Source: a virus
Reading direction: 5' to 3' (one strand)
Length of the DNA: 23,359 nt
Virus record (IMG/VR): IMGVR_UViG_3300048591_000807
Span: 1 to 23,359 of that record
The translations under genes were made by a program, and so were the position numbers. Positions within the stretch are counted from its first letter, which is position 1. The number at the start of each line of letters is the position of its first letter. Below, one piece after another: positions 1,640 through 23,343 of this stretch. Below the pieces are notes generated by a model. It ran no database searches. It was given only the letters and a program-made list of their open reading frames with translations, and was not told where the DNA came from.

Positions 1640-2924
1640 CCTTCCCGCCTACAAACCCTACGCCCGCCGCTGGCGTGCCCGCCAAAACGAGCTAGCTCGC
1701 CGCAAAGGCTATTACGACGGCTCCGCCTACGCTAAGATGCGCGAGAACATGGGCTGGCTCTGGCCGCGCCTCTACAAAGGTATCAAGCCGCTCTACCTGA
1801 CCCTATCTACCTCCGTCGATATCGACGCCGGCTTAATCCCCGGCGATTGGAAGTGGGAGGAGGACGCGCCCGAGGCCTGGGACATTGCCCGCACGCAAGT
1901 GTTTGATTGGTCCGACTGGCGGCGGCGGGGGGTGCTCTATGTCCACTACGGCGCTTTGTTCGGCGTGGTCGGCCTGCGCGTCGCTGACCTGCGCGACCGT
2001 GGCCAGGTGCAGCTCTCGCCGTGCTCACCGGAACAATTCATGCTGATCGAAGCCGGCCAGTATGACCCCGCGCCGGTCATGGCCTTCTGGCTGGAGCAGC
2101 GCGAGGGCGAAGACGGGCCGGTCGAATATGCCGAGGTGATTACGCCGGAAGAGGTCCGCACTTATTGGGACGGGGAGCCGATGGGCATCGAGGGCCGCCC
2201 GGAGGTCTACCCCAACGAGTTGGGCTTTGTGCCGTTTGTGGAGACCCGCCACAAAGAGACGGGTGACCCGCTGGGGGAGTGCACGTACCAAAACACCATC
2301 CCGATGATTGACGAGCTCAATCAGTTGGCGTCGTATCTTGGCGATAACGTCAACAAAAACCAGGAACCGCAGTGGGCGGTCTTTGGGGCGGCCTCTACCG
2401 AGCTGACCAAGAGCGGTGACAACGTTTGGTTTTTCGACAACCCCCAAGCGCGCGTTGAGCCCATCGTGCCAAAGCTCGACATTGCCGGCGTGCTAGAGTT
2501 TATCGACCGCATTGACCAGAACGTCAAGAACGCGCTACCGGAAACCGCGTACGACGAACTCAAAGCGAAAACACAGATCGCCACGGCCACGCTTGAGATA
2601 CAGCTCGGCTCCCTGGTGGTCAAGATCATGCGCTGCCGCCCCAACTACGACCAGGGGCTAATCGACGCGCTGCGCATGGCCGGCCGCGCCGCCGCCGGCA
2701 TGGGGCTGCCTGAGATTGCGGTGCTCGATGATGAATCGTTGGCACTCGACAATGAGCGGCCTGTGCTACCCCTGGACCGGCTGACGGCCATCGCCATCGA
2801 GCAAGCCGAGATCGGGCTTGAGATGAGCAAGGCATTGGCGGGTGGCGATGGGATGACGATGGAGGTCAACGAATGGACAGCCGGGGTACGCGAGCCGGGG
2901 GATCGGGGGAATGATGAGGCGTAG
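1623..2924 (+). CDS. Phage portal protein (433 aa)
   Basis: Dodecameric ring at the capsid vertex through which DNA enters and leaves, and the docking site for terminase and the head-tail connector. Length fits the SPP1 gp6/HK97-type portal range. The N-terminal part is rich in Tyr, Trp and Arg. The middle contains a wing-like segment with an acidic stretch. The region TIPMIDELNQLASYLGDNV resembles the helical segment often seen before the portal clip/stem. The later part (ALPETAYDELKAKTQIATATLEIQ) resembles the crown-proximal helices. The ATG at 1623 overlaps the preceding gene by 17 bases and has a weak upstream GGA. Position directly after terminase and before the MuF protein strongly supports the call. 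Confidence 0.88.
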   Translation: MKTIFDLPAYKPYARRWRARQNELARRKGYYDGSAYAKMRENMGWLWPRLYKGIKPLYLTLSTSVDIDAGLIPGDWKWEEDAPEAWDIARTQVFDWSDWRRRGVLYVHYGALFGVVGLRVADLRDRGQVQLSPCSPEQFMLIEAGQYDPAPVMAFWLEQREGEDGPVEYAEVITPEEVRTYWDGEPMGIEGRPEVYPNELGFVPFVETRHKETGDPLGECTYQNTIPMIDELNQLASYLGDNVNKNQEPQWAVFGAASTELTKSGDNVWFFDNPQARVEPIVPKLDIAGVLEFIDRIDQNVKNALPETAYDELKAKTQIATATLEIQLGSLVVKIMRCRPNYDQGLIDALRMAGRAAAGMGLPEIAVLDDESLALDNERPVLPLDRLTAIAIEQAEIGLEMSKALAGGDGMTMEVNEWTAGVREPGDRGNDEA

Positions 2925-3294
2925 TTACACGTCCGACGAATACGACGATTTGGCCGAGCAGTTCGCCATCCTGGGAACAGAGATGGGTATATACAGCCTG
3001 CTCGAAATGACAGACGACAATCCCGATCTCAAGTGGGAGGATACGATTTTAGAAATAGCGCGCATTGTGCAGCAGCGGCGGGTGCGAGCATTAAGTGAAA
3101 GACTTGATGCGCTGACGGGCCTAGATTGGGATGTGTTTCCACCCGATGAGTTGAGAGCCGAATATGGCGCGGGCCTAGATGAGCAGACTCTGCGGGTATT
3201 TGACGACACCAAACAGGCTGATATCGACGCCTATGCACGCTCTGTCGTGGCGGAATTTATCAATCGCGGCTTTAACTTCTCCCCCAAAGCCTAA
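2911..3294 (+). CDS. Acidic hypothetical protein between portal and MuF gene (127 aa)
   Basis: Unrecognised. It starts inside the portal gene (14-base overlap; ATG at 2911, another ATG at 2914) behind a G-rich stretch and ends three bases before the MuF start. It is acidic and predicted mostly helical, with many Asp/Glu in the first 50 residues and no membrane segment. Base composition is unusual here: the rows 2941-3000 and 3001-3060 are 32/60 and 27/60 G+C by direct count, clearly poorer than the flanking portal and MuF N-terminal regions. This suggests independent acquisition. Because it sits beside a MuF protein carrying a putative enzymatic C-terminal domain, an immunity or accessory role is possible, but nothing in the protein proves it. 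Confidence 0.7.
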   Translation: MMRRSYTSDEYDDLAEQFAILGTEMGIYSLLEMTDDNPDLKWEDTILEIARIVQQRRVRALSERLDALTGLDWDVFPPDELRAEYGAGLDEQTLRVFDDTKQADIDAYARSVVAEFINRGFNFSPKA

Positions 3295-3297
3295 CCC

Positions 3298-5205
3298 ATG
3301 CCGAGCCGACGCGAACGCCTCCTCGATAGCCACCTGGCCCAACTCGAAACGACCGAGCAGCGCGCCGCCCGGCAAGTCGCCGCGGCCTATGGCCAGGCCC
3401 GGCGCGAGCTGATTGCCACGCTGGTGGGCGGGTGGAATGGCACCGGCGTCGATACGCCCGACCAGGCCGCAGCCCGGCTACGGCAACTCGCCTTGCTGGA
3501 TCAGATTGACGCGCGGGTGCAACAGCTTGAGCGCGAGACCGGCCTGATCCTGCGCGGGCTGCTCAACGTCGCCGCCGAGCAGGGGGTCACGCAGATCCGC
3601 CGCGAGATCGCCCTCCTCCCACCCTCCCTCCGCCCCGAAAACACCCTCATGTTTGCGACGATCAACGAACGCATGGTCGAGCGCTACGCACCCGCCGCGC
3701 TTGACGGGCTGCGGGCCGGGACCACCGACCTGGGGATCACCCTGCGCAGGGAGTTGCAAACGGGCCTCCTGCAGGGCGAGTCGTTCCCCAACCTGGTGGG
3801 CCGGCTGCTCCGTGCCACCCCAGAAGGCGAGGGCACGGCCGTCTTTCCGCGGGCGCGCACTTCTGCCGAGCTGGCCACGCGCCGCGCCGTCATCACGGCG
3901 GAGAACGCGGCCAAGGTCGCGGCGATCGGGGAAGTGGCGACGCAAGACCCGCTAATCCGAAAGCAGGCCATCGCGGTCATTGGGAAGGGCACGACGGATT
4001 GCTGTCTGCGCGTGCATGGTCAGATTAAGCGCAATGACGAGCCGTTCGAGTTGGTGGGGGAGCCGCGCTTTGCGGACCGGATGATGGCACCATCGTTCCA
4101 CTGGAATTGCCGCACGGGCGTCGCCATGTATCACCCCGCCTTTGAAGAGTCCATGCCCACGGCCAAGCTGGAGCAGGACGCCAAGGCCGAGCGGGATCGC
4201 CGGCGCGAGGAGAAGGCCGAGCGCAGCCGGAGCGCTGACGAACGGGCCGCGGCGCGGGCGGCCAGGGTGGAAAGAGAAGCGGCGGTCGATAGGGCCGCGG
4301 CGGAACGGGCGCGCATTGCCGGCCTCTCGGATGACGAGGCGCGGGCAGAGCTGACGACGCTGATCGGTCGGATTCGTGAGGCCGAGGCGGCGGATAACGA
4401 GGCGCTGGGCGATCAGTTGCGCGAGCAACAGCGGGTCTATATCGAAGTGCTCGAAGCGCGGCGCAAGGTGGAGCAGGCGGCGCGGTTGGCACGCGAAGCG
4501 GCAGAACGGGCCGCACGCGAGGCGGAGCAGGCACGGCAGGCCGCGTCGTCAGTGCCGAACGCGACCGCTGTCACGGTGGCGCAAGATCCTGACGCCGAAC
4601 GGCTGGTTGGGCTTGCGCAGCGGACGCGTGACGCTGTGCACCAGTTGCCACAGGGCATTACTCCCGTCAATGTCAATGTCATTGATGGGCTTCTCGATGG
4701 CAGCCAGACCGTAAACGGCAGCTACAAGCTCGATATCATGGGGCAGTTACCCCACGAGCGTGGGATCGAGATGCGCAAAGAGCCCCGCATGGAATTTGTT
4801 TATCATCATGAGTTTGGCCACTATCTGGATCACCAGTATCTACAAATGAGCCATGAGATGCGGTACTATCGCCCCAACGCAGCCCGGCCCGTGCCAGAGG
4901 AGTTGCGGCAGGAATTTTGGTCAACGGTGCGTCAAACATCCGTTGTCAAGAATCTGGAAACGCAGCGCGATAATCTGTTCGACAGCCGGCCTCCAAACAG
5001 TGACTCCACGCCAGAGGAGCGATATTACCGCTATCTAGCTAGCGAAGCCGAGGTCTGGGCGCGGGCATATAGTCAGTATATCGCCCAACGGTCTGGGCGG
5101 ATGCAACAAGATTATCAGGCCAAGGCGACGCAGTGGAGCGAACAGGAGTTCGCGCCAGTTGCCAGTGTTATTGATCGAATCTTTGAAAGGCTGGGGCTCC
5201 GATGA
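3298..5205 (+). CDS. MuF-type head morphogenesis protein fused to a C-terminal HExxH metallopeptidase-like domain (635 aa)
   Basis: Minor head protein, normally packaged inside the capsid with the portal, here with an extra enzymatic module. Residues 1-280 form the MuF region: helical N-terminus, then the family signature with paired cysteines (CC at 235-236), HG at 240-241 and FHWNCR at 267-272. Residues about 290-420 are a long Ala/Arg/Glu coiled coil. Residues about 425-635 are a separate domain with YHHEFGHYLDH: HExxH at 504-508 plus His512, and an acidic helix SEAEVWARAY (Glu583, Glu585) that could supply a further zinc ligand. G+C falls sharply in the C-terminal part (49/60 in 4201-4260 against 25/60 in 4801-4860). 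Known MuF proteins can carry polymorphic toxin domains; a peptidase toxin or a head-maturation peptidase are both possible. Confidence 0.87.
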   Translation: MPSRRERLLDSHLAQLETTEQRAARQVAAAYGQARRELIATLVGGWNGTGVDTPDQAAARLRQLALLDQIDARVQQLERETGLILRGLLNVAAEQGVTQIRREIALLPPSLRPENTLMFATINERMVERYAPAALDGLRAGTTDLGITLRRELQTGLLQGESFPNLVGRLLRATPEGEGTAVFPRARTSAELATRRAVITAENAAKVAAIGEVATQDPLIRKQAIAVIGKGTTDCCLRVHGQIKRNDEPFELVGEPRFADRMMAPSFHWNCRTGVAMYHPAFEESMPTAKLEQDAKAERDRRREEKAERSRSADERAAARAARVEREAAVDRAAAERARIAGLSDDEARAELTTLIGRIREAEAADNEALGDQLREQQRVYIEVLEARRKVEQAARLAREAAERAAREAEQARQAASSVPNATAVTVAQDPDAERLVGLAQRTRDAVHQLPQGITPVNVNVIDGLLDGSQTVNGSYKLDIMGQLPHERGIEMRKEPRMEFVYHHEFGHYLDHQYLQMSHEMRYYRPNAARPVPEELRQEFWSTVRQTSVVKNLETQRDNLFDSRPPNSDSTPEERYYRYLASEAEVWARAYSQYIAQRSGRMQQDYQAKATQWSEQEFAPVASVIDRIFERLGLR

Positions 5206-5405
5206 ACCTAAACGAATTACTTGCAAAATACGACAGAGAAGAGGCGACGCTCCGCTTTGCAGAGCAGAACGGCTTTACGCTCGACGAAGCGCGCATGTAT
5301 ATAGAGATTGCGTTGGGGGAGAGCCTCGGAGACGTGGTACGCGTTGACGAGCAGGGTGGGCTGCACCCGCTGACGCCGCCAACGTCGGCGGAGCGCCCCT
5401 CTTGA
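5202..5405 (+). CDS. Small protein coupled to the MuF-metallopeptidase gene (67 aa)
   Basis: Unrecognised. The ATG overlaps the stop of the MuF gene (ATGA), implying translational coupling; only a weak AAAGG lies 11 bases upstream. The first about 45 residues look helical, with a segment resembling a small helix-turn-helix or UBA-like fold (EEATLRFAEQNGFTLDEARM), followed by a Pro-rich tail. The row 5221-5280 is 32/60 G+C, closer to the low-GC C-terminal domain of the preceding gene than to typical genes here. Its position directly after a putative MuF effector makes an immunity or chaperone role a reasonable hypothesis. No sequence motif demonstrates it. Confidence 0.6.
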   Translation: MNLNELLAKYDREEATLRFAEQNGFTLDEARMYIEIALGESLGDVVRVDEQGGLHPLTPPTSAERPS

Positions 5406-5516: not shown

Positions 5517-6014
5517 ATGGCAGATGAGACACCCAAGGCGGAGACACCCGCCCCAGCACCGCAAGGCGAGCAATCGCCCGGCCCTGTGCCGTATGAGCGC
5601 TTTCGGGAAGTGAATACGCAGTTGCAGCAGCTCAAGGCCGCGCAAGAAAAAGCCGAGGCAACCGCCAAGGCGAGCCGCGAGAAAGAGTTGCAAGAGCAGC
5701 AGAAGTGGCAGGAGTTGTACCAGCAGCGGGAAAACGAGCTCAAGAGCGAACGCACCCGCAACCTGAAAATGCAGGTGGCCCTGCAAAAGGGGCTACCGGC
5801 TGATCTGATTGACCGGCTGCAAGGCGACGATGCCGAGGCCATCGCCAAAGACGCTGACACGCTGTTGCAGTTCATCAAGCCGGCCAGCGCCCCAGGCGTG
5901 CCGCCCGGCAACCGCAACGCCCAGCCGACCCGGCTCGACATCAGCAACATGACGCCGGAAGAGATTCGCAAGAACGCCGGCAGCCTGCTCAAGCAGAGCC
6001 AGACGGCGCGGTAG
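5517..6014 (+). CDS. Capsid scaffolding protein (165 aa)
   Basis: Internal scaffold that guides coat assembly and then leaves or is degraded. The protein has a Pro-rich disordered N-terminus (1-25), then a long charged coiled coil of Gln, Lys and Glu from about residue 30 to 85. A compact helical segment with QKGLPADLIDRLQG and DAEAIAKDADTLLQFI follows, like phage GP20/DUF4355-type scaffolds. The short basic C-terminus could bind coat. The ATG at 5517 has GAGG at 5503-5506. It lies immediately before the coat gene, as scaffolds usually do. It is the first gene after the strong promoter. Confidence 0.85.
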   Translation: MADETPKAETPAPAPQGEQSPGPVPYERFREVNTQLQQLKAAQEKAEATAKASREKELQEQQKWQELYQQRENELKSERTRNLKMQVALQKGLPADLIDRLQGDDAEAIAKDADTLLQFIKPASAPGVPPGNRNAQPTRLDISNMTPEEIRKNAGSLLKQSQTAR

Positions 6015-6121: not shown

Positions 6122-7018
6122 ATGGCAAACATTACCACCACCCTGGTCGATGACAGTATTCCCACCATCGTGGCCGCGCAGGCGCTCGGCTACCTGCGCG
6201 CCAACACCGTGTTGGCGCGGTTGGTGAACCGCGACTATGAGAACGAAGTGCAGACATTTGGTCAGACAATCACCGTGCCTTATGGCGGCGCGCTCGTTGT
6301 CAATGACAAGACTGCCAATACGGTCGTCACCCGGCAAGTGCCTGGCGACAGCGTTTACACCTTGACCCTCAACAAGCACAAGGAAGTTACGTTCCTCCTC
6401 GAGGACATCGCCAAGGCTTTCGCCCGGCCTGACTGGTTCAGTGTCTACGCTGGCGACGCTATGTCGAAGATGGCCGAGCAGATTGATAGCGACATTGCCG
6501 CGCTGTATTCCGGCTTTTCGCAGTCGATTGACGCGACCTCTGGCTTGGGGGAGGACGACTTTCGCAACGCTCGCCGGCTGCTGAATAGCGCCAAGGCACC
6601 ACAGACGCAGCGCTACGCCGTCCTGCACGAAGACGCGGACTACGAAGCCCTGGGCATCGAGAAGATCGTCAATCGCGACTACACCGAGTCGTTAGGCCAG
6701 ATGGCAGCCGACAGCATGGTCGGTCGGTTCATGGGCTGGGAGATTCTCATGGATCAGATGATCACGACCGCGGCCGGCGAATGTAAGAACCTTTTCTTCC
6801 ACCGCAACGCCATCATGATGGCCAGCCGCCCGCTGCCGCCCGCGCCAGCCAATGCCGGGGTGCAACAGACGGTCATGAGCGAGGACGGGATCGGGATTCG
6901 TGTCACCATCGGCTACGACAAGGATCTGCTTGGTGTGCAATTCACGATCGACTGTCTCTATGGCGTGGCCGAGATGCGCGACAATCACGGGATCACCGTC
7001 CGCACGTCCGAACTGTAA
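6122..7018 (+). CDS. Major capsid protein, P22 coat-like (298 aa)
   Basis: Builds the icosahedral shell (HK97 fold). The N-terminus (ANITTTLVDDSIPTIVAAQAL) and the following segments with VNRDYENEV, GQTITVPYGG and LNKHKEVTFLLEDI follow the pattern of the P22 coat family, in which the first third contains the N-arm and E-loop. The middle (AMSKMAEQIDSDIAALYSG, then RRLLNSAKAP and RYAVLHEDADYEAL) corresponds to the spine helix and A-domain. The 298-aa length is short compared with P22 coat (430 aa) but normal for small members that lack the inserted I-domain. A strong ribosome site and the upstream scaffold gene support the assignment. Confidence 0.88.
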   Translation: MANITTTLVDDSIPTIVAAQALGYLRANTVLARLVNRDYENEVQTFGQTITVPYGGALVVNDKTANTVVTRQVPGDSVYTLTLNKHKEVTFLLEDIAKAFARPDWFSVYAGDAMSKMAEQIDSDIAALYSGFSQSIDATSGLGEDDFRNARRLLNSAKAPQTQRYAVLHEDADYEALGIEKIVNRDYTESLGQMAADSMVGRFMGWEILMDQMITTAAGECKNLFFHRNAIMMASRPLPPAPANAGVQQTVMSEDGIGIRVTIGYDKDLLGVQFTIDCLYGVAEMRDNHGITVRTSEL

Positions 7019-7037
7019 GCCGGCCCCCGCCGCATAG

Positions 7038-7054
7038 TTGAGACCAAATCTCAA
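7038..7054 (+). other. Hairpin between coat gene and next ribosome site
   Basis: TTGAGA (7038-7043) and TCTCAA (7049-7054) form a perfect 6-bp stem with a 5-base loop. The right arm touches the AAGGAA ribosome site at 7053-7058. It could moderate translation of the next gene relative to coat, or be chance. There is no T-run, so it is not a classic terminator. Confidence 0.35.
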
Positions 7055-7064
7055 GGAAACAAAC

Positions 7065-7547
7065 ATGACCATGAAAACTTTATTCACCACCTTTGCCGCT
7101 CTTTGCTTGATCGCCGTCGTGGCGCTCATGACGATGATCGACACCCGCCCCTCTGTCTACGCCGCGCCCGTGGCCGCGGGTATCACGCCCGTGGCGGGCA
7201 ATGAGCCGTCGGGCTCCAAGATTGGGCCGCTCATCCCGATTGTGACCGCAGTTGTGACCGCGGACGGGCGGATCTGCCGCGATACGCGCGAGTTCACGAC
7301 CGGCGATGTGCAGCTCGTTATGGCCCCCAACAGCACGCCGGTCAACATGACCGTCATGTTGGAGCACAGCAACGATAACACCAACTACACGGATGGCCCG
7401 CAGATCGTAGCCACGCAGAGCGCCGCAACTGACAGTCTGAATCGTTATGATCTGTATGGGGCGTATACGTGCGTCAATTGGGACATTGCCACGGATAGCA
7501 CAACCAATACGGTCGATCTGTCCGTGTACATGCTACCGCGGAACTAA
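7065..7547 (+). CDS. Secreted-type beta-rich protein in the head module (160 aa)
   Basis: I chose the ATG at 7065 because AAGGAA stands 6 bases upstream; an upstream TTG at 7038 lies inside a hairpin and has no ribosome site. The N-terminus is a clear signal peptide or membrane anchor: Lys4, hydrophobic residues about 6-25, and a VYA-AP site after residue 33. The mature part is Thr/Val/Asn-rich and looks like a beta-sandwich with two cysteines (GRICRD and AYTCVNW), which could form a disulfide. Placement after coat suggests a head decoration protein, yet an export signal is odd for a capsid component. It may act at the cell surface or use the hydrophobic segment for membrane interaction. Function not established. 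Confidence 0.8.
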   Translation: MTMKTLFTTFAALCLIAVVALMTMIDTRPSVYAAPVAAGITPVAGNEPSGSKIGPLIPIVTAVVTADGRICRDTREFTTGDVQLVMAPNSTPVNMTVMLEHSNDNTNYTDGPQIVATQSAATDSLNRYDLYGAYTCVNWDIATDSTTNTVDLSVYMLPRN

Positions 7548-7556
7548 GGAGAGCCT

Positions 7557-7850
7557 ATGGCCACCAAACCAACGACCGAACCAACCGAACCAACGACCCC
7601 GCCGGAAGCACCCGCCAAGCCCATCAAGCAGCAGGGCAAGGACGGCGCGTACTACATCGTCAACCCCGCCGGCGCGGTGCATGGCGTCACCCGCGAACAC
7701 GCCCGCGGCCGGCTGGCAACAGCCGGCTGGCGCATGGCGACCGAAGACGAGATCGCCACGTACCAGAGCCAGGAGATCCAGCGGCATGACCGGCCCATTG
7801 CGGCCCCGTGGAGCCCCGACCCGGACGCGCAGTTAGCGGAGATTGATTAG
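7557..7850 (+). CDS. Small Pro/Thr-rich head-module protein (97 aa)
   Basis: An AAGGAGAG ribosome site overlaps the previous stop and sits four bases before the ATG. Residues 2-25 are a Thr/Pro/Glu repeat (encoded by near-repeats of ACCAAC and ACCGAA), probably disordered. Residues about 30-75 form a small compact domain with YYIVNPAGAVHGVTREHARGRL and an aromatic AGWRMATEDEI. Similar small proteins often follow coat genes and can be accessory or decoration proteins. No catalytic motif. Function unknown. Confidence 0.75.
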   Translation: MATKPTTEPTEPTTPPEAPAKPIKQQGKDGAYYIVNPAGAVHGVTREHARGRLATAGWRMATEDEIATYQSQEIQRHDRPIAAPWSPDPDAQLAEID

Positions 7851-7879
7851 GGCGATTGTCGAGAAAGATAGGACAAATC

Positions 7880-8014
7880 ATGCAAAAGTTAGTACTCGGT
7901 TTATCGGTGACAATGCTCTTGATCTTCCTTGCCCTGCGGCCTAGCCCGCGCGGCTGGACCGAACAATCGCAGGGGCCAACGCCCACACCGGTGGCCACAG
8001 TGGAGACCGACTAA
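7880..8014 (+). CDS. Small single-pass membrane protein (44 aa)
   Basis: The ATG at 7880 has AGGA at 7870-7873 and the TAA ends at 8014, two bases before the connector gene. The product begins with MQKLVLGLSVTMLLIFLAL, a short basic N-terminus followed by a hydrophobic helix of about 17 residues. A Pro-rich tail with PTPTPVATVE follows. It fills what would otherwise be a 166-base gap between coupled genes. It could be a tiny secreted or membrane peptide. Function unknown. Confidence 0.55.
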   Translation: MQKLVLGLSVTMLLIFLALRPSPRGWTEQSQGPTPTPVATVETD

Positions 8015-8016
8015 CC

Positions 8017-8853
8017 ATGTACGCTGACCGCAGCCATCTCACCAATGGCCGCTTCCTGATGAATCTGGACAACTGGACCGCCACCGACGCCACCTATAGC
8101 GCCGGCGACGGTGACGAGCAGTATGGCGTCGCCGTGCTGGCTGCGGGCGGCTACATTACGCAGGATTTCACCGTACCCTATGCGCGAACCTACACGCTGC
8201 AAGTTGCGGTGAAGCCCGTCGGGGATACGCTGGCGACTGACGACCTGCAAGCGGTCATCACGGATGACGACAGCGGCACGGTGGTGGCGGTCAGCCTCGA
8301 AGGCGATACCGCTGACACCTGGCAGGTCAACACCGACCTGCTCGGCCTGGCACCCGGCAACACGTACACGCTCAAGCTGCTCAACAACGCAGCGATCCCC
8401 GTGCGCATTGACGACGTTTGGCTCTGGTTCGTACCCCAAACCCGTGCGCAGATTGCCGCGCAGGTGCACGCCCGGCTGGGCCAGCTCGCTACCGACTACA
8501 GCCTGAGCACCACCGCAAGCGGCGCGCTGACCGAGGGGAGCTATACCTACGCCATCGATGCCGCCCTGCGCTCGATGGGCGCGTTGAATACCGAGACCGC
8601 AGAGCCAGACGTGCGCTACCTGGACCCCAACGACATTGCGACCGTGATCGACTTGGTAGAGTCGGAGATGCTCAAGCGGGTGCAGCGCAGTGCGGTGACC
8701 GAGACCGATGTGAGCCTGGGGCCGCGGCGCGAGAGCCGGAGCCAAAAGAGTAAGGCGATTGGGGAGTTGGTCAGCGGGTCGGGTGGCGGGGGTGCGTCGC
8801 GGGTGGTCATGCGACCATTGCGGCGTGAAACGAAGGACTATGATTTTTCATGA
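8017..8853 (+). CDS. Head-tail connector fused to an N-terminal carbohydrate-binding-like domain (278 aa)
   Basis: Residues 1-140 read as a jelly-roll of the CBM4/9 type: LTNGRFLMNLDNWT at the start, YITQDFTVPYARTYTLQVAVKP in the middle and an end strand VRIDDVWLWF, the usual N-G-F/W, aromatic and IDDV pattern. Residues 143-278 form a helical adaptor-like domain (RAQIAAQVHARLGQ, YAIDAALRSMG, DIATVIDLVESEMLKRV) comparable with head-tail connector adaptors, followed by a basic Gly-rich tail. It lies where connector genes are expected, and its stop overlaps the stopper gene (ATGA). The joined lectin-like part would decorate the neck. The connector call rests on position and helical pattern; the jelly-roll call on sequence pattern. 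Confidence 0.65.
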   Translation: MYADRSHLTNGRFLMNLDNWTATDATYSAGDGDEQYGVAVLAAGGYITQDFTVPYARTYTLQVAVKPVGDTLATDDLQAVITDDDSGTVVAVSLEGDTADTWQVNTDLLGLAPGNTYTLKLLNNAAIPVRIDDVWLWFVPQTRAQIAAQVHARLGQLATDYSLSTTASGALTEGSYTYAIDAALRSMGALNTETAEPDVRYLDPNDIATVIDLVESEMLKRVQRSAVTETDVSLGPRRESRSQKSKAIGELVSGSGGGGASRVVMRPLRRETKDYDFS

Positions 8854-9191
8854 GCGCCCGCGATTTCTGCACTGTTGACGCATCGACCAAGCGCAACGCG
8901 GCCGCATCTGGCAACCGCTTAGGCGCGGCGGTCACCAACCTGGCCAGCCTGTTGATCACGCCATTGTGGCCAGTGGGCCGTGAAACAATCCGCCTACTGG
9001 ACCTCAACAGCCCGCGAGAGACCAAAGAGTGCTTCCATGTACCAGTGGCCGGCGGGGCGCTGCCTGACGTGCGAGAGCGTGACATCCTGGTCATCGGGGC
9101 GAATGAGTACCCGATTGACGCGGTGCTCGAATGGACGGACGGCGACATTCCGTCGCTGCACATCATCGTAGGACAGGTCAAGACAACCTAA
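8850..9191 (+). CDS. Head-completion/stopper-like protein (113 aa)
   Basis: Probable neck protein sealing the filled head. It is about the length of SPP1 gp16-like and HK97-type stoppers. A beta-rich C-terminal half carries a DVRERDILVIGANEYPIDAV segment, the usual R-D-x-hydrophobic pattern of these small barrels. ATG overlaps the connector stop by four bases, and its TAA shares one base with the next ATG. Family call is from size, predicted strands and gene order rather than from a strong motif. Confidence 0.6.
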   Translation: MSARDFCTVDASTKRNAAASGNRLGAAVTNLASLLITPLWPVGRETIRLLDLNSPRETKECFHVPVAGGALPDVRERDILVIGANEYPIDAVLEWTDGDIPSLHIIVGQVKTT

Positions 9192-9607
9192 TGGCACCAT
9201 CAGCATTCTCCGCCGGCCGCGTCGGAGCGGTCAGCATCACCGGCCTCATCGAAGCGCAGCAACAGCTCGCCCGCACCAACGCCGGCATTGCCGAGAACAG
9301 CAGCGGGCTGCGGCTGATGCTGAATCTGGGGGCGGGGATGGTGCACCGCTACCTTTTAAGCCTCGGCAAAGAGCGCCCGCCGGTCGGCCTGACGGGGGTG
9401 TTGCCGGTCATCACGGGCCGGCTCAAGAATAGCTTCTTTTGGGGCACACGCAACCAGGGCGGCCCGGTGGGCTTTGTGGCCACGAATCTGGCCTACGCCG
9501 GCCCTGTCGAAAAGCGGCGCGGCTTTCTAGGGAAGACGGTCAAGGATATGGATCAACCCATCAACAAACTCTTTACCGGCTACGTGGCCACGGTGACCCG
9601 TGAATAG
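9191..9607 (+). CDS. HK97 gp10-like neck/tail completion protein (138 aa)
   Basis: I chose the ATG at 9191, which shares one base with the preceding stop (TAATG); an in-frame start 60 bases upstream would lie inside the previous gene. The N-terminal helix with EAQQQLARTNAGIAEN and the second half with TGRLKNSFFW and ATNLAYAGPVEKRRGF match the HK97 gp10-like pattern: long helix, then T-G-x-L-x-x-S, then a Y-A-x-x-x-E motif. Such proteins join the connector with the tail terminator. The next gene starts inside its last codons. Confidence 0.72.
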   Translation: MAPSAFSAGRVGAVSITGLIEAQQQLARTNAGIAENSSGLRLMLNLGAGMVHRYLLSLGKERPPVGLTGVLPVITGRLKNSFFWGTRNQGGPVGFVATNLAYAGPVEKRRGFLGKTVKDMDQPINKLFTGYVATVTRE

Positions 9608-9998
9608 CCGCAAAGCCGCCCGCCAAGCCCTGGCCGGCCTGATTGACGACATTGCGACGTTTCAGGCGGTCTATGCCCGCGAAGCACCTGATTTCGGCGG
9701 GCTTTCGCCGGTGGCGATGGTGCGCAGCGAGGGCACCCGACCGGGGCCGGCGCTGGCCTTGGGCGCGTTTCATCGGGAGCACGCCTTGCTGATTTCCATC
9801 TACTGGAAGTGGCAAGCGACGACCGAGGACGACCTTGACGATTTGAGCGAGGATGTGTTGGACCTCCTCGAGGCGAACAGCGGACCGACCGCGAATTGGG
9901 ATTCGCTGACAGTTGACGAAGAATTTTCCGCGATGGACTATCCGGTGATTGATGGTGTGATGTATCGGGTGGAACAGATCCGCGTAATGGTTTGGTGA
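9600..9998 (+). CDS. Tail terminator protein candidate (132 aa)
   Basis: Expected role: caps the tail tube and docks it to the head. It starts with GTG at 9600, overlapping the previous gene by 8 bases. The sequence has an N-terminal helix (ARQALAGLIDDIATFQ), a central strand with an aromatic run (ALLISIYWKW) followed by an acidic helix (DLDDLSEDVLDLLEAN), and a final strand pair (VIDGVMYRVEQIRVMVW). This order agrees with gpU/DUF3168-like terminators and with the slot between gp10-like and tail tube genes. No specific motif; moderate confidence. Confidence 0.6.
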   Translation: MNSRKAARQALAGLIDDIATFQAVYAREAPDFGGLSPVAMVRSEGTRPGPALALGAFHREHALLISIYWKWQATTEDDLDDLSEDVLDLLEANSGPTANWDSLTVDEEFSAMDYPVIDGVMYRVEQIRVMVW

Positions 9999-10008
9999 GG
10001 TAGAGACG

Positions 10009-10287
10009 ATGGCTGTAAGAGCAGGGCAAATCACCGTAACAACCGCCGGCACTGCCGTGCAAGGCGCCTTCAACGTGGCGAAAGTCGTCGCGGTCAAGGC
10101 GCACCCGGATAATGCCGACACGATTTGGGTCGGCAACGACGGCGCCGGCTCGCCTGACGTGACGAGTGCCAACGGCTTTCCGCTCAATCCTGGCGAGGGG
10201 GTGGTGCTGACGGGCGGCCTCTCCGACTTCTGGTTCGATGCGGACAGCAGCGGCGATAAGGTTTGCTGGCTGGCGGTGGAACTCTAA
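10009..10287 (+). CDS. Small beta-barrel decoration-like protein (92 aa)
   Basis: GAGG at 9997-10000 precedes the ATG by 8 bases. The order of motifs is typical of small virion surface modules that also appear fused to fibres: GTAVQG near the N-terminus, VVAVKAHPDNADTIWVGN in the middle, then NGFPLNPGEGVVL and a final DFWFDAD. Its TAA shares one base with the next gene's ATG, so it is coupled to the LamG-like protein. Probably a virion surface accessory. The slot between tail terminator and tail tube is not a standard one for it. Confidence 0.6.
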   Translation: MAVRAGQITVTTAGTAVQGAFNVAKVVAVKAHPDNADTIWVGNDGAGSPDVTSANGFPLNPGEGVVLTGGLSDFWFDADSSGDKVCWLAVEL

Positions 10288-11534
10288 TGCGACCGCTACT
10301 TGGTTGGCTGCTCGGCAAAGCACCGCTGGGCATGGGCCAGGGGGGCGGCGTGGGCCACCAGGCGGATTTCACCGCGCCACCGTATTACCTGATGCGCGAT
10401 GCGTTCGACACCGACCGCGCACAGGGCGCGGTCAGCGGCGCGCCGGCTGATCCTGGGCCGGGATATATCGCGCAGATCGCCGATGCCGGCAGCGATATCA
10501 ATATCAGCGGCGGCACGCTGAATCTGCCCTCGCAAAACGAGCGCGTCTGGTACAACGGTGTAAATCGCCGCGCCGGCGTGGCGATGCGTTGGACGGTAGA
10601 CACGGCGGCCCTGACCAACAACGGCTGGGCGGATGCACTGGGGAACATCGCGACGACGGCGCACGGCATTGGGGTCATTCCGGGCGGTGACATTCGGATC
10701 TATGACAACAACTCTTTTGCCGTGGCGGGCACCTATACCACAGAGACCGAATGGTGCTCGATTCTGCGCGAGGTGGGCGCAATGGCGCTTGTGAAGCGCG
10801 CTGGCCATTGGTTGCTGCTCTATTTTACAGCGAGTGAGAATTCGGCGGTCATGTACCCGAGTTTCGCCACCATTGTCAGTGGTGCGCTGGAGGTGTCGTT
10901 ACTGGCCGTCCCCGCTAAGCTCTGGCTGCCCGCCCCCCTCGTCAGTGACGGCTTTTCGGCCTGGGGCGCATCGGACGGTCTGGGCCATGCCGAGGGCGTT
11001 ACCGGCGGGCTGGGCAGTGGCGGGGCTGGCGAAACGTGGGCTAGCGAATCGGAGACCTGGACCGCAGCGGGTGGCGTAGCGTACAGCGAGGACGGGATCG
11101 GCGTAGAGAATATTGCGACCGTGGATAGTGGCGTTGCAGATGTGATCGCAACTGCCAACGTGACACTGGCGACGGGTAGCGGCGGGGTGGTGGTGCGGTG
11201 GACCGATGGCGCAAACTACGTCAAGGCTGTGCACAATAAAACCAATGCGCGGCTGATCAAGGTCGTCAACGGCACGCCAACCACACTCATTGACACCGCG
11301 GCCGCCTACGTCGCCGGCGCGCCGATTCGGGTGATCTGCGATGGCCAAAAGTTCCGGCTCTTTTACAACAATGTGGCGGTTGGGGCAGAGCAGACTATTG
11401 CTGATGCTGCGCTGGCTGATGGCACAGGGCAGGGCATTATCTTGTTGGATGATGCCGGCCATACGGCTGATGATTTTACGGTTTTTGCTCGCGGCACCGA
11501 TGGCGAGTATGACACGATTCTTGACGCAATTTAA
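10287..11534 (+). CDS. LamG/lectin-like virion protein (415 aa)
   Basis: The ATG at 10287 overlaps the previous TAA (TAATG). Residues about 30-210 form one beta-rich region beginning DAFDTD. Residues about 220-410 form a second, beginning with SDGFSAWG, which contains a LamG-like pattern: GGVVVRWTDGANYVKAV, then KVVNGTPTTLI, then IRVICDGQKFRLFYNNVAVG and a closing DDFTVFAR strand. Such sandwich domains bind carbohydrates or build fibres. No membrane segment or enzyme motif. Likely an adsorption or decoration protein carried near the head-tail boundary. Confidence 0.65.
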   Translation: MRPLLGWLLGKAPLGMGQGGGVGHQADFTAPPYYLMRDAFDTDRAQGAVSGAPADPGPGYIAQIADAGSDINISGGTLNLPSQNERVWYNGVNRRAGVAMRWTVDTAALTNNGWADALGNIATTAHGIGVIPGGDIRIYDNNSFAVAGTYTTETEWCSILREVGAMALVKRAGHWLLLYFTASENSAVMYPSFATIVSGALEVSLLAVPAKLWLPAPLVSDGFSAWGASDGLGHAEGVTGGLGSGGAGETWASESETWTAAGGVAYSEDGIGVENIATVDSGVADVIATANVTLATGSGGVVVRWTDGANYVKAVHNKTNARLIKVVNGTPTTLIDTAAAYVAGAPIRVICDGQKFRLFYNNVAVGAEQTIADAALADGTGQGIILLDDAGHTADDFTVFARGTDGEYDTILDAI

Positions 11535-11546
11535 GCGGGGGCACGC

Positions 11547-12284
11547 ATGGCAGTCTTAGGCTACAACACGAAGATCCTGATTGACGAGTTTGATTTCAGC
11601 GGCCAAACCAACGGCGTGGTGCTCAACACCGACACCAGCATCATCGAGTACCAGGTGCTGCAAAATGCCGGCGTGCTGAAAATCCCCAATCTGGTCAGCC
11701 CGGCCATCGAGCACCGCGGCTACTACAATGGCCCCGACGCCGGGGACATCGAAGCCGAGCTACACAGCCGGCTGGGCAGTGCGAATGACGTGTATGTCGG
11801 GTTGGTGTTCGGCACGCATCTGGCTGCGCCGGTGGGCTATGTGCTACCGCAATCTTTCAACCAGCAGCTCCGCATCGACACCCCCATCGAAAACCTGATC
11901 GCCGTCAACGGTAACTGGCCAGGGGGCACGTCGCGGATTTACCGCGGCTTGCAAGCCGCGCTGGGCACGGCGGAGGATGCGACCGGAGCCGTGGGCGGGG
12001 TGGACTTTGGGGCCGGTGGGAGTGCCGGCGGGGCGGCCTGGCTCTTTGTGCAGGGCATTACGGGGACCGCGACGGACGCCACGATCGTGGTGCAGAGTGA
12101 TAGCGCAAGCGATTATTCGGGGGCCGTGACGGAAGCAACCTTTACATTTTCAGCGGTTGGCGCGTACCAGGCGACGCTGAGCGGGACAGTGGGGCGTTAC
12201 GTTCGTGCCAATATCACCGATTTGGGCGGCGCGGATGATATTACATTTTTGCTGATTGTCGCGCTGAGCGGCGTTTCATACTGA
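11547..12284 (+). CDS. Major tail (tube) protein candidate (245 aa)
   Basis: Candidate ring subunit of the tail tube. The N-terminal part is beta-rich (GYNTKILIDEFDFSGQTNGVV, then IPNLVSPAIEHRGYYNG) as in tube proteins of siphophages. A C-terminal segment WLFVQGITGTATDATIVVQSDS with YVRANITDLG looks like an added beta-sandwich, as often seen exposed on the tail surface. A GGGGG run serves as ribosome site. It lies before the tail assembly chaperone, as expected. The adjacent 133-aa protein could share or compete for this role. Confidence 0.65.
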   Translation: MAVLGYNTKILIDEFDFSGQTNGVVLNTDTSIIEYQVLQNAGVLKIPNLVSPAIEHRGYYNGPDAGDIEAELHSRLGSANDVYVGLVFGTHLAAPVGYVLPQSFNQQLRIDTPIENLIAVNGNWPGGTSRIYRGLQAALGTAEDATGAVGGVDFGAGGSAGGAAWLFVQGITGTATDATIVVQSDSASDYSGAVTEATFTFSAVGAYQATLSGTVGRYVRANITDLGGADDITFLLIVALSGVSY

Positions 12285-12295
12285 GGAGATAGCAC

Positions 12296-12697
12296 ATGGC
12301 AGTGAAGGCCTTAACCAATGTGACCGTAACCTATGACAGTGACAGCCTGGAGGAGCATCTGAATCAGGCTTCACTCGAAGCGGTAATCGCGGAAATTGAC
12401 ACGACCGTCCTATCCAGCACCGCCGGCGAAAAGATTGCCGGCTTGGGTAACTGGTCGGTCCCCGTGGGCGGCTTCTGGAGTTCGACGCTCGACGGCTATC
12501 TGGGGCCGGATGCGGTCAGCCCGCCCAGCACGCTCAAAACGCTGGTGGTGGTGATCGGGCCATCGGGCAGCCAAGTTACCTATACCTGGACTAGCAATGC
12601 CTTCCTGAGCAACTACCGCGTAAACGCGGACAATCCTGGCGGCGCGATCACCTGGTCCGGCACCCTCTCCGTCAGCGGCAACCCGGTGCGGAGCTAG
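12296..12697 (+). CDS. Second tail-tube-like protein (133 aa)
   Basis: GAGGAG at 12283-12288 lies seven bases before the ATG. The protein is nearly all beta. It shares a clear pattern with the last 120 residues of the 533-aa protein encoded at 15888-17489: D-T-T-V-x-x-S-T-A-x-E-x-I near residue 35-47, then W, then G-x-W with LD and LG, then VTY, F-x-S-x-Y-x-V and a closing WSG-x-x-x-(V/I)SG-x-P. Together they look like one tail-tube/distal-tail barrel used twice. The gene could encode the actual tube subunit or a tube-tip protein. Confidence 0.65.
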   Translation: MAVKALTNVTVTYDSDSLEEHLNQASLEAVIAEIDTTVLSSTAGEKIAGLGNWSVPVGGFWSSTLDGYLGPDAVSPPSTLKTLVVVIGPSGSQVTYTWTSNAFLSNYRVNADNPGGAITWSGTLSVSGNPVRS

Positions 12698-21792: not shown

Positions 21793-23343
21793 TTAGCGTG
21801 CCTCCGTCACGTCAACGCCCAGCGGGGCACCGCTTGGCAAGCGCACGGCGGCGCGGAACTGGTGGAAGTAGGCGTGCGCAATGCTCTTGTACGCCGTGTG
21901 CGGCTTGGCGTTGCCCTCGCTCTCTGCCATCAGTCGCGCCAGGTCGGTGATACCACGGGCCGGCCCCGTTAGCAGGTCGGGATGAGCGGAGAAGAACGCG
22001 GCGGTTACGTCATCCCATTTGGGGGCGGGTTGTTCGTTCGCCCGTTCGCCCGTGTCGCTGTCTCGTGTATTTGACCGCCCACCCCCATCGCGAACGCCAT
22101 CCTGAACACCATCCACGCCATACTGCACCCCCACGATATCTACCCCACGCCGCGCCGGCAACGCCCGCAGGATGCCGGCCACGTCGGGCGCAACGTGCCA
22201 GGCGTCGTACTCTTTGCCGCGCAGCAGGAAGCGGCCACAGTCGGGTAATTTGCTGGCCTTGTACTCCTCGAGCTTCGCGCCCTGGTTTGGCCCCAACTGA
22301 AACACCGCTTTGGCCTTCGTGCCGGCAATCACCTGGTTGCTCCAGTGCTCTGGATACTGGTCAATGAATAGCAGATGAATGTCGGTCATCCGACTAAGCC
22401 GCAACAGCCGGTCAAGCATCGTGTCGACCGCCTCGGCTTCGCTGCGCTTGGCTTTGCGCAGCTGGTCAATGAGATCGCCATATTCTTCGACCACCACCAA
22501 CACCGGCGGCGGAGGGGTGCGCAGTTGCCCCACATCGGGCACGTGGGCGGCCTTGACCGTGGCATAGCGGCGGTCGTGCTCGGCTTCGATGGCGCGTACC
22601 TGATCGGGGAAGGTGGTACGGTCGCTTTCGTGCCACTCGGCGTGCCGGCTCCACGGCTCCCAGTCCGCGCCGCCCTTGGGGTCAAGGATGACCGTGTGCC
22701 AGCCGTGGCGGATGGCGTAGGCGGCAATGAGGAAGCCGAGCGACGCGGTTTTGCCCGTGCCGGTCGCGCCGATAATGCCGGCGTGCACGCTCTGGCGGGG
22801 CTGGATGGTGGCCAGGGTACCGGCTTCGGGATTCTGGCCGATGATCCACTTTTCCGGCTCGCTGCGCTTGAAGGCGGCGGGCAGGCTGAGCGGTTCGCGC
22901 GGCGGCGCTACCCGCTCAACGGGCGGCGGCGCGCCGACCACCCGCGGCGCGGCCGGCGCCTTGGCTTCGAGCTGGCGCACGCCGGCCATGCTGGGCATCC
23001 GCGACATGGCACCGTTCTGGTTCATCCGCGCCGCATCACCGGGGAACATGGCGCGAATGCTATTGCTGCGCTCGATGGCATGGCGGAGGGGCGCAACGAC
23101 ATCCCAGCCGGCGGGGTGCTCGATTTCGGTGTAGTCGCCGGTGCGGCGGTCAATGACCGCGGCCGCGCTCATCATGTGGGTTGGGTTGATGACGACCGTC
23201 CGCCCGCCGCGCACGCGGAAGCGTTGCAGTGGGTAGGCACCGTCTACGGGGCGGTTCTGCTGGTTCTGGATTCTGGCATAGACAAGCCAGGCTAGCACCA
23301 TCAGCGCGCCGACGATAGCCACCAGCGCGATATAGAGCAGCAT
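21793..23343 (-). CDS. FtsK/TraB-like DNA translocase (516 aa)
   Basis: Membrane-anchored ATPase expected to pump double-stranded DNA. Residues 2-22 form one transmembrane helix, then a variable region to about 155 with Pro-rich linkers. The motor spans about 165-395, with Walker A GATGTGKT (192-199), VILDPKGG (218-225), Walker B VLVVVEEYGD (281-290, Glu286/Glu287) and a sensor-like HLLFIDQYP (323-331). A low-complexity GV-x-x-G linker (405-422) leads to a C-terminal helical domain (443-500), winged-helix-like by appearance. This layout is closer to actinobacterial TraB conjugation pumps than to full FtsK with four membrane helices. ATG at 23343 has no clear ribosome site and the frame is open to the window edge, so the true start may lie outside. 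Confidence 0.82.
   Translation of the reverse strand: MLLYIALVAIVGALMVLAWLVYARIQNQQNRPVDGAYPLQRFRVRGGRTVVINPTHMMSAAAVIDRRTGDYTEIEHPAGWDVVAPLRHAIERSNSIRAMFPGDAARMNQNGAMSRMPSMAGVRQLEAKAPAAPRVVGAPPPVERVAPPREPLSLPAAFKRSEPEKWIIGQNPEAGTLATIQPRQSVHAGIIGATGTGKTASLGFLIAAYAIRHGWHTVILDPKGGADWEPWSRHAEWHESDRTTFPDQVRAIEAEHDRRYATVKAAHVPDVGQLRTPPPPVLVVVEEYGDLIDQLRKAKRSEAEAVDTMLDRLLRLSRMTDIHLLFIDQYPEHWSNQVIAGTKAKAVFQLGPNQGAKLEEYKASKLPDCGRFLLRGKEYDAWHVAPDVAGILRALPARRGVDIVGVQYGVDGVQDGVRDGGGRSNTRDSDTGERANEQPAPKWDDVTAAFFSAHPDLLTGPARGITDLARLMAESEGNAKPHTAYKSIAHAYFHQFRAAVRLPSGAPLGVDVTEAR

Follow-up and report, generated by a model that had tools for sequence, protein, structure and literature searches.

The C-terminal domain of a MuF-type minor head protein encoded in the window, by which we mean the whole analysed stretch of 23,359 bases (IMG/VR record IMGVR_UViG_3300048591_000807), is a zincin-like metallopeptidase that looks active judging from its sequence and modelled fold. 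The favoured reading is that of a virion-borne effector, as the domain recurs on different head-protein N-termini and is co-conserved with a neighbouring gene. We give about an even chance to the proposal that the protein is a protease borne in the virion and probably ejected, and that the gene at its side is a candidate for its inhibitor.

Gene order and architecture of the MuF-type protein

The window, a fragment, carries genes for head and tail, comprising a terminase, an SPP1-type portal (1623-2924; PF05133, E 7e-9), the MuF-type protein of 635 amino acids (3298-5205), a scaffold protein (5517-6014; phrog_233, E 8e-16), a P22-type major head protein (6122-7018; PF11651, E 1e-16) and tail genes. 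The genes located in the preceding sentence and the features of the next paragraph lie on the plus strand. A gene of 127 amino acids without a family match over the cut-off lies between the portal and MuF genes (2911-3294), and its GC3 of 0.60 is low, as in the peptidase domain. Two tandem genes (11547-12284 and 12296-12697), the second about half as long as the first, match the major tail protein family phrog_9522, and an FtsK/HerA-like ATPase gene (PF01580, PF01935) is found at the right end on the opposite strand (21793-23343). A Chloroflexota host, suggested in an earlier note on this DNA, found no support, searches with the protein of ORF 3298-5205 leading only to Akkermansia and Arthrobacter phages.

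The MuF domain spans residues 150-274 (3745-4119). The PF04233 match of the protein (22.7 bits, E 1.7e-4) is below the Pfam cut-off of 29.6, and the MuF assignment is based on the match to phrog_28751 (E 8e-7 over residues 219-308) and on the position of the gene between portal and scaffold. A coiled-coil-like linker rich in Ala, Arg and Glu follows (residues 286-425; 4153-4572), 74% of which consists of A, E, K, R, D and Q. The zincin-like domain (residues 433-635; 4594-5202) is supported by alignment A7, the AlphaFold2 model and VIA-align, and contains the HEFGHYLD active-site motif (residues 504-511; 4807-4830) and a helix bearing E585, referred to as the Glu helix (residues 583-599; 5044-5094), which was identified from alignment and model and overlaps a Pfam LPD1 match at residues 577-615. 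The earlier note had placed the domain at 4560-5205; its C-terminal location was correct, but position 4560 is out of frame and the in-frame domain runs from about 4594 to 5202.

The marked drop in G+C described in that note is exact, with counts of 49/60 at 4201-4260 against 25/60 at 4801-4860. GC3 falls from 0.82 before the domain to 0.62 within it and is 0.69 in the small ORF that follows, a fall at the boundary that would be consistent with recent acquisition in the lineage of the window. As a general mark of acquisition the drop was rejected, since it reaches p 0.01 or less in just three of 12 loci (the window, L019 and L020) and is missing from the other nine.

Domain search and conserved residues

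HEFGH (residues 504-508) is the sole HExxH among the 213 six-frame open stretches of at least 60 amino acids in the window. Shuffling the C-terminal region produced an HExxH in 338 of 20,000 trials (1.7%), so that the motif alone is modest evidence and the case is carried by conservation and fold, which rule out a chance occurrence. Single-sequence scans gave no match in viral contigs; of the plasmid scans, one gave a single match at E 0.4 and the other none. The best match of a PDB sequence search was a designed bundle, followed by metalloproteases at E 0.09 and worse, and no Pfam or NCBIfam cut-off was passed. Two Akkermansia phages, Chantilly and Chambord, each gave a weak match to a 'head morphogenesis' protein, and alignments seeded by these two matches led to 14 viral loci, out of 60 stretches fitting a pattern.

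Alignment A7 has 14 rows, namely the window, L007-L009, L011 and L013-L021, and omits the near-identical L010 as well as L012 and L022, which are copies of one Akkermansia gene. H504, E505, G507, H508, D511, E585, A588, R589, A590 and Q593 are invariant in all 14 rows, conservation at the recruiting motif being partly built in because the scans used short motifs. Nearly invariant are His448 (just after helix 1), P455, Y591, W613 and F618, row L020 ending before the last two. All 12 loci recruited on the E..ARAY motif alone carry HExGHxxD, and the sequences of L020 and L021 do not fit the ARAY pattern, yet both have the Glu helix. L013 also matches phrog_4415 (E 0.0012), a PHROG named peptidase. 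That the domain is a structural relic without catalysis, as might be imagined from the structural nature of its carrier proteins, is very improbable, since the motif residues and E585 remain invariant in rows with as little as 19% identity to the window.

The nearby His to which the earlier note had also pointed was rejected as third zinc ligand: the flanking His503 and His512 vary among the A7 rows. The likely third ligand is E585, which lies 77 residues further along than H508 and in the model belongs to a later helix. In a tree of the domain, three of the 11 inner branches are well supported, one of them joining the window and L014 (100/99). When 96 genomes from the same phylum as the Akkermansia genome were searched with alignment A6, one matched, and it was already known; no instance of the domain on a classical secreted toxin was found among the sparsely sampled bacterial genomes.

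Predicted fold

An AlphaFold2 model computed from the 14 rows has a pLDDT of 88.7 and a pTM of 0.89; a poor earlier model from seven sequences (pLDDT 61) was set aside. Its topology consists of a helix, three strands (26-30, 42-45 and 57-61), the active-site helix (66-83, corresponding to residues 498-515, with HEFGH at 72-76) and the Glu helix (151-167, corresponding to residues 583-599). The place of the invariant E585 on this later helix is a gluzincin-like third-ligand feature. The zincin metallopeptidase domain on the MuF protein that the earlier note had postulated was thus borne out: the model sets residues 504-508 on the active-site helix, behind the three-strand sheet, and HExxH is kept in all 14 aligned domains.

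Among the families listed by VIA-align, the top match was the catalytic domain of lethal factor (Z 8.7; 140 residues aligned at rmsd 4.0 with 14% identity). In reading this score, a Z under about 8 may reflect no more than a widespread arrangement of elements, and 8.7 is close to the highest Z attained by models that lack a clear match. Many of the following rows were the lethal factor N-terminal domain, Certhrax and edema factor, in which the matched domains are zincin-like and non-catalytic, and lower rows included BepA, M1 aminopeptidases, ACE2 and IrrE. Foldseek of the model against the PDB gave no match at E 0.001, and in BFVD the protein matching best was one for head morphogenesis in a phage (TM 0.74 by query, E 4e-9). 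Given the limited VIA-align Z and the lack of a Foldseek match in the PDB, it is the combination of motif, Glu helix and topology that makes the case for a zincin.

LPD1 as the probable Glu half of a zincin

Pfam LPD1 (PF18796) was matched by 11 of the 12 rows of A6 at E up to 0.5 (best 1.6e-7), and where shown the matches fall on the Glu helix. In the window the match is below the cut-off of 27 bits, both for the whole protein (15.1 bits, E 0.024) and for the domain alone (16.4 bits, E 0.0093); among the whole proteins scanned, only that of L021 passed it (28.4 bits). Of 288 genomes belonging to the same phylum as the Akkermansia genome, seven (L023-L029) gave LPD1 over the cut-off, and in each of these seven proteins an HExxHxxD precedes LPD1 by 56-197 residues. 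The one Akkermansia genome searched had none. A profile-profile comparison of the domain family with LPD1 gave a probability of 95 and an E value of 2e-8. From the upstream HExxHxxD in 7/7 proteins and the profile alignment of both families, LPD1 is best read as the second, zinc-ligand (Glu) half of a zincin. The published description lists LPD1 among 40 domains whose precise functions are called 'elusive' (PMC5512222), and the passages and listings of open-licence PMC papers covered by the search gave neither a name for this domain family nor any identification of LPD1 as a zincin.

Recurrence on other phage proteins

The profile search for the domain on other N-termini, which the earlier note had recommended, brought up several MuF PHROGs, a fusion to a portal and two proteins without MuF. 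The domain lies behind MuF-type proteins matching phrog_115/4728 (L014), 241 (L017), 1657 (L019), 193 (L020), 595 (L021) and 3517 (L011), and behind a region resembling phrog_220, clearly so in L015 (E 1e-8) but with a weak match in the Akkermansia phages (E 0.004). In L018 (288-4361) it ends a polypeptide of 1357 amino acids that also contains a portal (PF06381), an inorganic pyrophosphatase domain (PF18823) and a repetitive charged stretch. The peptidase proteins of L013 and L016 have no MuF match, and the L013 gene sits between exonuclease/UvsX genes and a methyltransferase. In both of these loci the N-terminal part of the peptidase protein resembles a giant neighbour: in L016 (5281-6504) that of the gene just downstream (6698-12483; 48% over 67 residues, E 9e-11), and in L013 (5395-6471) that of the downstream gene at 7213-12459 (28%, E 1e-6, in part of low complexity). 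Pfam gave no match for either of the giant proteins. We infer from the sequences that this common N-terminal part is perhaps a packaging tag.

The peptidase may cut the linker of a MuF protein, either that of its own chain or that of a neighbouring one, inside the procapsid or during entry, so as to free itself or to ready the MuF protein for exit, with no target in the host. The long charged linker would be accessible to it, and in the polyvalent-protein survey zincins are proposed to self-process and DdrB of phage P1 is processed before packaging (PMC5512222). The domain is C-terminal, however, and would free only itself; it is also present without MuF in L013 and L016, and the same survey has N4 vRNAP, ArdC and TraC1 packaged or transferred at full length (PMC5512222). 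We regard such self-processing as unlikely.

The earlier note offered, as its alternative, a head-maturation peptidase acting on the scaffold; the capsid would be a further possible substrate. The gene lies between those for portal and scaffold, and the window has no match to PF10123, PF04586 or PF00574, families that were not found in six of eight records, the window included, several of the records being short fragments. Dedicated head proteases nevertheless coexist with the domain elsewhere: in Chantilly a gene of its own, next to that for the capsid, encodes a Mu-I type protease (PF10123, E 4e-14), and G290 and G291 have a Mu-I type protease (E 5e-12) and an S78 protease (E 7e-12), respectively. 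The position of the L013 gene among recombination genes and the lack of a MuF match in L016 also speak against this role, and P22 and SPP1 heads are not known to need a protease. The window peptidase protein itself matched no known prohead protease family in Pfam or PHROGs. A role in head maturation is accordingly disfavoured and appears distinctly improbable.

Some existing annotations touch on the same subject. The Arthrobacter phage genes L004:2992-3984 and L005:2995-3921 are called 'capsid maturation protease' in some records and have a MuF-type match and no HExxH, and the name head maturation protease is likewise given to PHROGs 595 and 193, although what they match in L014, L020 and L021 is the MuF part. 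The labels of head or capsid maturation protease on MuF-type genes and on these two PHROGs look doubtful.

A further possibility, a special case of the ejected effector, is that the protease acts against a host defence protein, the small ORF being only a chaperone or unrelated. The L013 gene among recombination and methyltransferase genes would fit this, and so would the L018 fusion, whose pyrophosphatase domain is known from polyvalent proteins; no defence gene, however, was recognised beside the peptidase in the window from the Pfam and PHROG searches. We rate a counter-defence function as improbable.

The small acidic ORF and the relative L014

An acidic ORF of 67 amino acids (5202-5405, plus strand; pI 4.4) overlaps the stop codon of the peptidase gene and has homologues in L014 and probably L021. 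L014 is the nearest relative of the window, with identities of 39-40% for the peptidase, 54% for the terminase, 35% for the scaffold and 33% for the small ORF (E 4e-9 or 2e-11 in separate searches). By contrast, BLASTP gave no significant match between the two portals (best E 1.9) or the two MuF N-terminal parts (best E 0.058), and the best PHROGs for portal, MuF and major head protein are 104, 115 and 3990 in L014 against 64, 28751 and 283 in the window. Between these two phages the peptidase and the small gene are thus, as far as sequence comparison goes, better kept than the head part that carries them. A plain exchange of head genes was not proven, given that each portal weakly matches the PHROG of the other (E 6e-8 and 3e-5), and the difference may instead be due to divergence.

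The small ORF of L021 is probably related: its score was reached in none of 1000 shuffles, and a two-sequence HMM run over 2787 open stretches ranked it first among the non-seed hits, with an E value of just 0.69. The other six adjacent small ORFs showed no detectable relation to the window ORF, nor did any of five small phage genes used as controls resemble it. A common origin of all nine adjacent small ORFs is therefore unsupported beyond the window, L014 and probably L021.

An ORF of 50-110 amino acids starting between -20 and +10 of the stop codon was found after eight of nine peptidase genes against nine of 51 other genes of the same loci, the size range having been chosen after looking and L011 (59 amino acids, GTG start) having been dropped by the gene filter. 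The Akkermansia peptidase gene of L007 has no following ORF within the tested range of size and distance. Seven MuF genes without the domain served as a comparison, an eighth (PSS2) having been dropped because it ran off the stretch. Four of them (EJ-1, Javan213, DanielleIgnace and KellEzio) precede an annotated gene of 69-73 amino acids that overlaps them or starts within 10 bases, the -20 to +10 range fitting Javan213 and KellEzio only (2/7), and no such small gene follows those of vir215, phiAxp-1 and ChaoS9. Since small genes also follow MuF genes without the domain, adjacency was rejected as proof of immunity and is weak evidence, co-conservation being the better argument. The foremost candidate for a cognate inhibitor or immunity protein is, from the sequences, the product of the 67-residue ORF.

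Proposed role as a virion-borne protease

For a virion-borne protease we infer activity, packaging, ejection, a target and inhibition along the following lines. Zinc would be bound by H504, H508 and E585, with a water molecule activated by E505. Within the head, the MuF part would anchor the enzyme to the portal, and the linker, being long and charged, would keep it in the lumen. When the DNA is ejected, the enzyme would go along and cut a protein of the cell that has just been infected, while the acidic 67-residue protein would keep it harmless in the producing cell.

A wider proposal is more tentative, and taken as a whole we think it rather unlikely. Zincin and tiny acidic inhibitor would form a mobile two-gene cassette that moves between phages onto capsid-entering proteins, by which are meant several MuF types, the portal and the tag also present on a giant protein next door; the acidic proteins would represent a novel type of protein inhibitor, directed at a virion-injected protease, and LPD1 would be the zinc-binding second half of this peptidase superfamily.

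If the protease is packaged and ejected, a conserved and traceable protease family with an adjoining candidate inhibitor would join the effectors injected by phages, and LPD1 would also gain a function. Chantilly, a relative, has an annotated integrase. Chantilly and Chambord of Akkermansia muciniphila are reported among 13 prophages induced in a laboratory gut consortium (PMC10197239), and packaging is directly testable in these inducible prophages with the same domain.

Comparison with known systems

Of the lethal factor-type peptidases (M34/ATLF), the lethal factor catalytic domain provides the top VIA-align rows, with the limited Z given above, and Pfam ATLF reaches E 0.084 in one of the 12 A6 rows. 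The zincins of polyvalent proteins are described with the same succession of a helix, three strands, an HExxH helix and a Glu helix (PMC5512222). In the widespread phage-type clade, one of 12 in that survey, an Asp stands three residues after HExxH, as does D511 in 14/14 rows here; strand 2 of the clade is also described as ending in a highly conserved His, whereas the window family has no invariant or nearly invariant His in the strand region (A7 first-row positions 24-71) and has the nearly invariant His448 instead.

In organisation, the MuF polymorphic toxins likewise have, in the head module, a MuF N-terminal part that is extended at the C terminus by an enzyme and followed by a small ORF, and a metallopeptidase domain is reported in 20% of 191 putative MuF toxins (PMC5576092). 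The window domain is under every Pfam and NCBIfam cut-off. Bxa and Apk2, two MuF toxins followed by small genes as in the window, were shown experimentally to be neutralised by adjacent immunity genes, and their enzymes are described as an ADP-ribosyltransferase and a (p)ppApp synthetase, not a peptidase (PMC11699363, PMC12226406). Fusions of MuF to metallopeptidases, polyvalent zincins and MuF toxins with neutralising neighbours are thus already in print. New here are the identity of LPD1, the retention of the peptidase and small gene while the head part changes, and the coexistence of the domain with dedicated head proteases.
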